Below, one piece after another: positions 7,161-35,997 of a stretch of DNA of 56,673 nucleotides. Position numbers and translations under genes: made by a program. Source of the DNA: Acidobacteriota bacterium (lineage in GTDB: Bacteria > Acidobacteriota > Terriglobia > Bryobacterales > Bryobacteraceae); contig SYKU01000392.1 in the NCBI GenBank assembly GCA_005808865.1, positions 1 through 56,673 of the forward strand, in the 5' to 3' direction. The number at the start of each line of letters is the position of its first letter. The stretch's first letter is position 1. The notes below the pieces were generated by a model. The model saw only the letters and a program-made list of their open reading frames with translations, made no database searches and was not told the origin of the DNA.

Positions 7161-7512
7161 TGGTGGAGGCGGCGGGAGTTGAACCCGCGTCCGAGAAAGC
7201 CCGCGACAAAAAGAACTACGTGCGTAGCCGACTCTTGAGTCTCGACCGCCGCCCTAGACCCGGCAGAAAGGACGGCCATCCAGCCCGGTTGATCTCGATC
7301 TGAGGCTACGAGCAGAAGCCCTCGACCTATCCAGCAAGATGACGCTCACTCACCGCCGCGCTGGCTCGACGGCTGGAGCGGCCGCTTATTTAATTAAGCA
7401 GCGTATGCAAACTGCGTGTTGGCAGTTGTGTTTTTCCGATCGTTTTACGGGAGCTCGGAACCCGGCACGCCTTCCTGTCACGATTCGATCCCGTCGAATC
7501 CGTTGCGCCCCC
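7161..7512 (-). ncRNA. ssrA: Transfer-messenger RNA (tmRNA)
   Basis: The 5' end (minus strand, 7512 or 7513) reads GGGGGCGCAACGGATTCGAC and the 3' end (7161) reads ...CCGCCTCCACCA with an encoded CCA. The first seven bases pair with the acceptor side CGCCTCC (one G-U pair). The T-arm 'GGGTTCAACTCCC' is intact. About 352 nt, the usual length. It rescues stalled ribosomes: charged with alanine, it enters the A site and supplies a short message that tags the nascent protein for degradation, together with SmpB (not in this window). Confidence 0.97.
7394..7423 (-). other. tmRNA proteolysis-tag reading frame (ANTQFAYAA)
   Basis: Inside ssrA, minus strand, the codons GCC AAC ACG CAG TTT GCA TAC GCT GCT TAA encode A-N-T-Q-F-A-Y-A-A-stop. 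The tag starts with the resume alanine and ends in AA, as required for ClpXP-type recognition. Confidence 0.93.
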
Positions 7513-33728: not shown

Positions 33729-34937
33729 CTACGTCGATTGCCGGCAATCCGCGCTCTCCCCGGGCAACACATCAATCCCCAGAGGGTCGTGATCCGACAG
33801 CGGCCACCCTTCCCTCACGTCGTGGATCACCACAGGAGCTTCCACACGCGCGCCTCGAGTCGCAAACCAGTCCAGCTTCAGGGGACATTTTCCTCCATGG
33901 TTCCTCAGTGCCCATCGAATAAAGGCGAAGCACCAGCCGGGCACCCAGTCCCCAAGGCTCTTTCTCTTGCTGGGATTCTCGACGTCGTAGCTGACTGTGT
34001 ATTCTCCATCGACGTTACAATTGCGGAAGTCGAACCCCCGCGATTCCAGCAGTTCGAACAACTCCCGCTCGAACAGCCGCTCTGGGTGAAGATAGTGGTT
34101 CCGTATCACGTGATCGACGCCCATGAACACGCGCAGCCAGAATCCGGCAATCGCCGGAAAAGCACTGGTCGAGTCGTAGGTGCTCGTATTCCAGTCGCCT
34201 CCAAGGACTACGGGCAGTCGCGGTGTTTCAATCGCGTCGAGCGCATCGAGCACTTCCCGCATCTGGTCGCGGCGGTGGTTTTGCGACGACTGGGCGTCGA
34301 GGTGAACCGATACCGCGGTGACCGCATAGTTCGGAAAATCGATATCGGCCGCAACCGCGGTTGGACATCCGAGGCGTTGCTCGCGCCCGGCGATCTTGTC
34401 CATGCTGTTTCTCATCTGAATTCCACGCGGGTTGCGGATCGGGTAACGGCTCAGAATGGCGTCTCCATGCAGACCGATTTCGTTCTCCCCGGGGAGGTCG
34501 AACTCCGCGCCCGAACCTTTCGTCAGGTTGAGATACGTAGGAACGAAAACGTATGCAAAGCCTAATTCGCGGGCCAGGGTCTGGGCAACGTGATGGTTCC
34601 CCGATCTGGCCATTCCGATGTCCGTTTCCGTCAGAAGGAGCACGTCGCAACTGCTGAGGTAGGGATGCTGCCGGAACGCCCGGATCTGCCCTTCGATCTC
34701 GGTACCGCGTTCGACGTTCCAGGCAAGGAACCTGTAACGCGGCCGCGCGGGGGCGGCTTCCAAGCGGTAGTCGGCTGTTTCCGGAGCCGCAAGAACGTCA
34801 CGAATCAGCGGTTCGATCGAGCGATAGACGGGGTGCGCCTCGAGTTCCCGCCAAGACCGGCACCGGGCCAGGACCGGGAAATGAGGCTTGATCCGCTCTC
34901 TAATCGTCTGGTAGATTTCTTCAGGCGTGCTTGGCAT
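33729..34937 (-). CDS. Endonuclease/exonuclease/phosphatase (EEP) family protein
   Basis: 402 residues, no clear signal peptide, so cytoplasmic. The EEP fold landmarks are in order: 'YRFLAWNVERGTEIEGQI' (Asn), 'DVLLLTETDIGMARSG' (metal Glu), 'VTAVSVHLDAQSSQNH', 'VVLGGDWNTSTYDS' (D-x-N), 'LKLDWFATRG' (L-D) and the terminal 'WPLSDHDPLGIDV' (S-D-H). All catalytic residues seem present. The family covers nucleases, phosphodiesterases and sphingomyelinase-type enzymes; which one is not clear. ATG 34937. Confidence 0.88.
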   Translation of the reverse strand: MPSTPEEIYQTIRERIKPHFPVLARCRSWRELEAHPVYRSIEPLIRDVLAAPETADYRLEAAPARPRYRFLAWNVERGTEIEGQIRAFRQHPYLSSCDVLLLTETDIGMARSGNHHVAQTLARELGFAYVFVPTYLNLTKGSGAEFDLPGENEIGLHGDAILSRYPIRNPRGIQMRNSMDKIAGREQRLGCPTAVAADIDFPNYAVTAVSVHLDAQSSQNHRRDQMREVLDALDAIETPRLPVVLGGDWNTSTYDSTSAFPAIAGFWLRVFMGVDHVIRNHYLHPERLFERELFELLESRGFDFRNCNVDGEYTVSYDVENPSKRKSLGDWVPGWCFAFIRWALRNHGGKCPLKLDWFATRGARVEAPVVIHDVREGWPLSDHDPLGIDVLPGESADCRQST

Positions 34938-34983
34938 TGATCGTCGACAGAGGGTACGGGCGAAGTGCGCGCCGCAAGAGCGA

Positions 34984-35013
34984 TTGACAAATCGTGCGAA
35001 CCATAATTACCAT
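34984..35013 (+). promoter_or_regulatory. Sigma-70-like promoter of a small transcript
   Basis: Perfect TTGACA at 34984-34989, an 18-base spacer and TACCAT at 35008-35013 (4/6 of the -10 consensus; CATAAT overlaps just before). It points into a region with no ordinary gene but with an extended ribosome-binding site and hairpins. Confidence 0.55.
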
Positions 35014-35045
35014 GATGAGTGAAAAAGGAGGTGGTCCAGAAGACG

Positions 35046-35087
35046 ATGAGTTATTCCAGTAGACCGCGAGAGGTGGCCGGCTGTTGA
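35046..35087 (+). CDS. Candidate 13-residue peptide with extended Shine-Dalgarno
   Basis: ATG 35046 to TGA 35085-35087 encodes M-S-Y-S-S-R-P-R-E-V-A-G-C. The preceding 'aaaaaggaggtggtcc' (35022-35036) is almost fully complementary to the 3' end of bacterial 16S rRNA, much longer than any other site in the window, although the spacing to the ATG is long (about 9-14 bases). The peptide ends in Cys; the stop overlaps a small hairpin (ggctg/cagcc, 35080-35095). It could be a leader peptide controlling a downstream structure, or a functional micropeptide. Function not known. Confidence 0.45.
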   Translation: MSYSSRPREVAGC

Positions 35088-35171
35088 TTCAGCCGTTCCG
35101 ACGTTGCCGGCTTCGTTTCAGTTACGAGGCCATGTTCCGGTGGACCGGCCGCTTCGTCGCTTGTTGAAAAT

Positions 35172-35234
35172 GCCCGCCTGCTTACGCAGCGGGCGACGCT
35201 CGTGAGCCGCCGTTTGTTTTCCGGCGGCCACGAG
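35172..35234 (+). ncRNA. Two adjacent stable hairpins in a probable structured RNA
   Basis: Hairpin 1: GCCCGC (35172-35177) with GCGGGC (35189-35194). Hairpin 2: CTCGTG + GCCGCCG (35199-35212) with CGGCGGC + CACGAG (35222-35234), 13 pairs interrupted by one bulged A. Neither is followed by a U-run, so a simple terminator is unlikely. They lie downstream of the promoter and peptide above, inside a 0.7-kb gap. Confidence 0.45.
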
Positions 35235-35312
35235 ATTCCAGCCTGGGCTTCCCGCCTTCAGTTTGCATTGTTCCGCGAATTCCCATACAACTGCTGACAC
35301 TGTGCGTTCGCC

Positions 35313-35455
35313 ATGAGTACTTACCTACCCCGTCGCTCGCGTCCTGCGGGCCCGTTTTGAAGAAGCGGTTCTCTCTCGGGCTGGGCTTCCTCCCATCCTA
35401 CATGCACCTGCTCGAAGACGCTCACGGACGCCGCCGACGGCCGGTGGAACGGTGA
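35313..35455 (+). CDS. Two overlapping candidate micro-ORFs
   Basis: ATG 35313 to TGA 35360 encodes 15 residues (M-S-T-Y-L-P-R-R-S-R-P-A-G-P-F). Its stop overlaps a TTG (35357) that begins a 32-residue frame (L-K-K-R-F-S-L-G-L-G-F-L-P-S-Y-M ... R-R-R-R-P-V-E-R) ending at 35455. The TTGA overlap would allow coupled translation. There is no Shine-Dalgarno before 35313, so this is weak. The remaining bases to 35646 show no gene. Confidence 0.2.
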
Positions 35456-35646
35456 ACCAGATTCCAGCAATCGCCTGAATCCAATTCAGCCGCGGGTAGA
35501 CACATATTGTTGTCCGAGTGTATTTCTCCCCCGCGCGGCCAATCCGAATGGTGAGAGCCGCGTCGGGCACAGCCCATCGGCTTGCGAATTGCCGATCCCA
35601 AGTGAGGCCTGCGACGCTATCCACTGCACGGGGCTACAATGGCGGA

Positions 35647-35997
35647 ATGAGGTTCGTGCGCGCGGCCATCGGCGGCTCCATCCTGTTATTCCAGGTGGTC
35701 ATGATCGGCTACGCGCGCTTCGTGCCGTCCCGCTATTTCTGCTGGGCACCCTACGACACTCAGACGGAATATTGGATTTCGGCCTCCGTCAACGGACGGC
35801 CGCTTACCGGAGCGGAAATCCGGGCTCGATACCGCCGCGCCGGTCACGGATTCGACAACCGGTCGCCACAACACGTAATCGACATCCTACAAGGCGTCGA
35901 AGAGCGAACCGCCGCGGATGCGCGGGCCGAGGTGTCCTTGAAGTACCGTGTGAACGGCAAGGAGGAGCGGGAATGGCGATTAACCTCCAGCCGGTGA
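35647..35997 (+). CDS. Small hypothetical protein with N-terminal membrane anchor
   Basis: 116 residues. One N-terminal hydrophobic segment ('AAIGGSILLFQVVMIGYARF') is followed by a soluble part with 'FCWAPYDTQTEYWISASVNG', 'AEIRARYRRAGHGFDNRSPQ' and 'HVIDILQGVEERTAADARAE'. ATG 35647 starts the conserved text, and a TACAAT just upstream (35635) may be its -10 box. It overlaps the start of the HTTM-DUF393 gene by 25 bases, so the two products are probably made together and may form a complex. Family not recognised. Confidence 0.75.
   Translation: MRFVRAAIGGSILLFQVVMIGYARFVPSRYFCWAPYDTQTEYWISASVNGRPLTGAEIRARYRRAGHGFDNRSPQHVIDILQGVEERTAADARAEVSLKYRVNGKEEREWRLTSSR

Follow-up and report, generated by a model that had tools for sequence, protein, structure and literature searches.

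The closest described system to the element analyzed here is Ms_IGR-5 (RF02471), present in Rfam as an uncharacterised actinobacterial sRNA. In M. abscessus and M. smegmatis, Ribo-seq gave significant reads on its homologs, although the authors themselves caution that co-sedimenting RNPs can give rise to such a signal on sRNAs (PMC4974804). Streptomyces transcripts have also been annotated as Ms_IGR-5 (PMC8079986, PMC8780764). Two other systems show a partial likeness. The flavobacterial rpsU mRNA has an unusually long Shine-Dalgarno (SD) sequence that responds to the 16S tail (reviewed in PMC10931766). That SD serves a gene for a ribosomal protein, while here an SD of similarly unusual length precedes an ORF of 11-21 codons within a structured RNA. 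Each of the L31 leader motifs (PMC7247131), which come from other phyla, is a single hairpin within the L31 transcript. Our element is likewise an RNA upstream of rpmE in most of Bryobacteraceae, but it is preceded by a promoter of its own, contains a mini-ORF and persists without L31.

One copy was found in the window, which is the whole stretch of DNA that was analyzed (56,673 nucleotides from a Bryobacteraceae member of Acidobacteriota). With Ms_IGR-5 the RNA shares the 5' segment ACAC..AAGGAGGUGGUCC, the ORF end ..GUGAGGUGGCUG.., the 3' strand GAAUCC..CAGUCACC and a terminator. The Bryobacteraceae copies differ in having another partner for helix P1, CGGCCGCCUC, and a pseudoknot with hairpin P3, and the Rfam consensus structure pairs the SD with the codons after GAGGUG instead of forming P1. 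The covariance model of RF02471 (cut-off 45 bits) gave no match at the window element, and Rfam searches at gathering and relaxed thresholds returned nothing meaningful for it. Two acidobacterial copies pass this cut-off (L105 with 50.6 bits and L095 with 50.3 bits), and three others (L092, L088 and L083) score below it at the same place and strand as the element. The window element is a distant relative of RF02471 that falls outside the family under the current Rfam model. The initial annotation proposed it as the best candidate for something undescribed, which must be qualified, as its actinobacterial relatives are already in Rfam. In a literature search that did not cover most subscription journals, no description of the mini-ORF, of the pairing with the 16S tail or of an occurrence outside Actinobacteria was found, and searches with the peptide strings returned unrelated words only. 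The parts of the window copy are listed below.

34984-35013, + strand: sigma-70-type promoter, TTGACA (34984-34989), 18-nt spacer, TACCAT (35008-35013); TTGAC lies at a similar distance in homologs.
35017-35022, + strand: 5' arm of the pseudoknot, CACTGA in relatives and GAGTGA, with mismatches, in the window copy.
35022-35037, + strand: SD stretch AAAAAGGAGGTGGTCC.
35022-35039, + strand: extended SD AAAAAGGAGGTGGTCCAG, able to form 16 contiguous pairs with the 3' tail of 16S.
35046-35087, + strand: mini-ORF MSYSSRPREVAGC-stop, from ATG to TGA; in-frame start and open frame in 126 of 127 non-redundant homologs.
35070-35079, + strand: GAGGTGGCCG, which comprises the E-V-A codons, a second SD-like motif and the 5' arm of helix P1.
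35079-35094, + strand: hairpin around the stop codon, GGCTG/CAGCC, from the fold of the window sequence; equivalents in relatives.
35109-35131, + strand: hairpin P3, GGCTTCGT/ACGAGGCC, with a TCAGT loop; double changes in four of six counted pairs.
35118-35123, + strand: pseudoknot partner TCAGTT.
35142-35146, + strand: GGACC, complementary to GGTCC of the SD, a possible means of SD sequestration; same place in most Bryobacteraceae.
35146-35155, + strand: CGGCCGCTTC, 3' arm of helix P1 in its family version.
35172-35234, + strand: two hairpins where relatives have a terminator; the U-tract is absent in the window.

The promoter, SD, ORF, stem at the stop codon and both 3' hairpins had been named in the initial annotation, and each was found where it had been placed. 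The promoter matches the consensus at 10 of 12 positions. No second promoter occurs in 34900-35700, a region for which 0.2 sites of that grade are expected from shuffled sequence. GGCCGAC/GUCGACC hairpins in relatives, read by eye, are the equivalents of the hairpin around the stop codon. The 3' hairpins have folding energies of -16.9 kcal/mol (35172-35194) and -24.8 kcal/mol (35199-35234, 13 pairs). In most relatives the last hairpin is followed by a T-run, forming a terminator. The window copy has lost several parts common in relatives, namely pseudoknot pairs, the motif GGCTACC and this U-tract. The window species and genome G002 keep the hairpin itself while the U-tract is gone and L31 is not downstream (35199-35260, compared with L003); in another genome of the same genus (G001) both U-tract and downstream L31 are present.

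The element is conserved in nearly all Bryobacteraceae genomes. Positions 35012-35166 of the window belong to the conserved RNA. A blastn search with 34938-35320 against 60 related genomes matched the core (35020-35160) in many genera, with identity from 90% (L002) down to 69% and E values from 6e-149 to about 1e-5. Homologs have in common the TTGAC promoter, CACTGAGAAAGGAGGTGGTCCAG, the start codon and the ..REVADC stop region. A covariance model of the family (R1) has matches in 140 of 150 Bryobacteraceae genomes, including 106 of the 108 of good quality, and all but two of the matched genomes have a single match. The two exceptions may carry paralogs: G152 (C39 151211-151360 and C24 29837-29981) and G003 (C93 5700-5850 and C208 7415-7575), the second match in G003 being weak. 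Covariation agrees with the structure. Over 22 family members, 25 double-change cells were counted against 10.2 in shuffles, and when the pseudoknot (5' CACTGA with the P3 loop TCAGTG) is added the count is 30 against 11.2, a value reached in 0 of 500 shuffles; these shuffles do not remove relatedness, but slid controls are likewise far below. The pseudoknot is paired in 91.7% of cells over the 22 homologs, including double changes from A-U to G-C. Taken together, the comparisons indicate that the element is real, a single-copy RNA gene of about 0.2 kb. The initial reading was borne out in that the region holds a conserved element, explained by no gene of the window, in which a dedicated promoter and an extended SD are combined with structured RNA and a mini-ORF of coding-type conservation.

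Outside the family, R1 matches in other Acidobacteriota families are weak; most of them can be read with the same SD and ORF, the exceptions being L102, L104 and L106. A second model (R2) was built from 35 loci, Actinomycetota included and none titled Bryobacterales. It matches the window element at E 4.3e-8, its sole match in that genome. At E 1e-3 it matches 48 of 199 Acidobacteriota genomes, and it also recovers copies in families f2, f3, f4 and f6; one extra match (L262) is 16S antisense and false. A pattern scan of genome contigs with AAAGGAGGTGGTCCN{20,50}GAGGTGGC found at least 80 loci, and among the matches listed Actinomycetota and Acidobacteriota predominate. Among these same matches are single records titled Sumerlaeota (L119), Zixibacteria (L129), Planctomycetaceae (L130), Nitrospirae (L139) and Deltaproteobacteria (L145). 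In L130 the stop lies at +18, unlike the usual position, and L138 is probably a chance match. On these searches the RNA extends to other families of Acidobacteriota, to many Actinomycetota and to a few other phyla.

The 16S rRNA of the relatives ends in GCGGCTGGATCACCTCCTTTCT, and the 5' segment of the element is able to pair with most or all of this single-stranded tail. With G-U pairs included, 15-21 continuous pairs are possible in most copies and 16 in the window. The complementarity recognized in the initial annotation is therefore present, but it had been reported too short, its actual length being 16 nt (AAAGGAGGTGGTCCAG). The SD 14-mer AAGGAGGTGRTCCA occurs once in the 5.7-Mb genome of the window, at the element. 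The form with GGTCCA is found at most once in each of the other genomes searched. The form with GATCCA occurs in several of them as antisense of the 16S gene itself, and in f3 genomes it lies inside the element. Some f3 copies (L252, L257 and other loci) have GGTGATCC, a perfect Watson-Crick match to 16S, while most other lineages have GGTGGTCC, with one G-U pair. An extra base (GGAGGATGGTCC) breaks the SD of family f8, so that contiguous pairing is just 10 nt there. Sequestration of the SD by a complementary strand was considered as a universal feature and rejected, being lineage-specific only.

The shared ORF has 11-21 codons, begins 1-10 nt after the SD segment and ends in E-V-A-x-x-stop. 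The stop lies 15 nt after the start of GAGGTG, with 9 nt between the end of this motif and the stop, and TAG, TGA and TAA are all used at that one position. An in-frame ATG, GTG, TTG or CTG at 1-10 nt from the SD, followed by an open frame, is present in 126 of the 127 non-redundant copies against 18.0 +/- 4.2 in shuffled sequences (87 against 6.7 for ATG alone); the copies had been chosen by a stop at the stated distance from GAGGTG, which conditions the stop and not the start or the open frame. GC at wobble positions of the ORF is low, 0.32 at family loci with 60% GC and 0.41 at loci elsewhere with 68%, which fits an open region of ribosome entry. With the stop codon in the A site, GAGGTG would lie at an ordinary SD distance from the P-site codon. 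Four loci of the acidobacterial family f24 (L083, L085, L089 and L093) have two GAGGTG motifs per ORF, e.g. MSYHSSSEVSYRTREVAAT, as if the end module had been duplicated. An RNA catalogued as an sRNA has thus kept an ORF of 11-21 codons over very long evolutionary times.

Helix P1 is formed between the codons at the ORF end, which follow GAGGTG, and a 3' strand close to the terminator. Its pairs vary among copies as GCUG/CAGU, ACUG/CAGU, UCUG/CAGA, CCUG/CAGG, GCUGUG/CACAGU, GCUGAG/CUCAGU and CCGGG/CCCGG. Across phyla, 376 of 450 pairs form at six variable positions in 75 non-redundant sequences, while permuting the ORF ends gave 306.5 +/- 6.1 with a maximum of 329 in 5000 permutations. A sequence motif, and not pairing, served to anchor the 3' strand, and a bulge of 0-2 nt was allowed equally in the permutations. 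The signal was weaker in an initial swap test whose search region was loose, and it is clear in the anchored versions. In Bryobacteraceae the P1 partner is CGGCCGCCUC, immediately 3' of UGGACC. About half of the family also retains GGCUACC, able to pair with GGUGGCC, and the genus of the window has only the CGGCCGCCUC partner.

This anatomy is well supported by conservation, ORF architecture, complementarity and covariation, and from it we infer a function probably tied to the state of the ribosome. A free 30S subunit would bind the extended SD, and a ribosome would translate the mini-ORF to its stop, covering one arm of P1; there its anti-SD may also pair with GAGGTG. As a ribosome at the stop would cover a P1 arm, the RNA is predicted to have two exclusive states, one folded without a ribosome and one opened by it. 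In this way it could sense or soak up free 30S subunits, and its 3' strand, released or hidden, might relay the signal in trans to a putative target; the product that counts is probably not the peptide itself. That the element is a stand-alone, ribosome-gripping mini-mRNA related to Ms_IGR-5, whose most likely role is to sense or soak up free 30S, is the reading we prefer, with confidence about evenly balanced between belief and doubt. The Ribo-seq reads on mycobacterial homologs lend it indirect support from outside, while the parts lost from the window copy, the lineage-specific SD sequestration and the interrupted SD of family f8 weigh against it. A wider proposal is more tentative and may well prove wrong: the RNA could represent a hitherto unrecognised, phylum-crossing class of ribosome-state sensors, which would base-pair with the whole free 16S tail, be briefly translated, switch between held and folded forms and regulate ribosome supply or hibernation in trans. 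A near-universal, single-copy family RNA, recognisable across phyla and with a 16S-tail complement unique in the genome of the window, suggests that a part of translation control has gone unnoticed. Ms_IGR-5, an orphan sRNA of mycobacteria and Streptomyces, gains a testable anatomy (mini-ORF, P1 switch and 16S-tail pairing), and its function can therefore be attacked in M. smegmatis.

Two other explanations deserve weight, both of which we consider unlikely. In one, the micropeptide (M..S..RT/PREVAxx) is the product that matters and the RNA structure merely sets its expression. The retention of the ORF in 126 of 127 copies speaks for this, as do the nearly invariant E-V-A and the enrichment of Ser, Arg and Thr. 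However, length varies between 11 and 21 codons and the residues outside E-V-A vary widely, while E-V-A itself can be explained at the nucleotide level by P1 pairing. Copies ending in REGAGS or SEGAEA (L022, L254) still keep the ORF, and the Ser codon is mostly AGT, suggesting selection on nucleotides rather than residues. In the other, the element is a non-coding antisense decoy of 16S rRNA or 30S with an ORF that is read incidentally. The 15-21 nt of complementarity in most copies and the 14-mer found nowhere else in the genome of the window are what a decoy would have, and an extended SD can inhibit translation according to Komarova et al. 2002, as cited in PMC10931766. Pure base-pairing would nevertheless need neither a conserved start distance nor a fixed stop distance kept with differing stop codons.

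A role as cis leader (attenuator) of the ribosomal protein L31 gene is very improbable. In 32 of 39 non-redundant family loci L31 follows directly downstream, in most of them with a terminator-like T-run in between. However, L31 appears to have its own TGnTATACT promoter past the terminator, and in the genome of the window the element (contig C351) is conserved although L31 is on another contig (C128). Neighbors, with names read from protein sequences, also change with the lineage: L31 in most of the family, and uL13, thiG or unrelated genes in others. As neighbors differ and L31 is unlinked here, the L31 leader was rejected, and a cis leader of any other gene is likewise unsupported.

Sensing of cysteine, also suggested in the initial annotation from the terminal Cys that the window copy shares with many family members, or of another amino acid, can be practically discounted, since the last residue is not conserved (C, S, R, T, A, F, G, H and others across homologs) and there is neither a run of regulatory codons nor a conserved regulated gene downstream.

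Like tmRNA, the element is a structured RNA that contains a short ORF with its stop, but it starts from an SD and a start codon, and a tRNA/tmRNA search gave no match for it, with neither tRNA-like ends nor a tag ORF. A regular tmRNA gene, the sole one found, is present in the window (7161-7512, - strand, tag ANTQFAYAA); the element is thus not a substitute tmRNA. Carriage by phages or plasmids was searched with one mycobacterial copy as query and rejected. The lone plasmid match is a 2.7-Mb Nocardia replicon, and the one phage match (MT835602) reads as an actinobacterial chromosome. In this last record, titled 'unverified bacteriophage' and obtained from human faeces, an Ms_IGR-5-like element lies beside chromosomal-type genes (L239, MT835602.1 13873-16928), and it looks like an actinobacterial scaffold. 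Another record, titled Acidobacteriota (L137, JAGWNV010000124.1), has an Acidimicrobiia-type element ending in ..GTLEVAGR, which suggests a mislabelled MAG.
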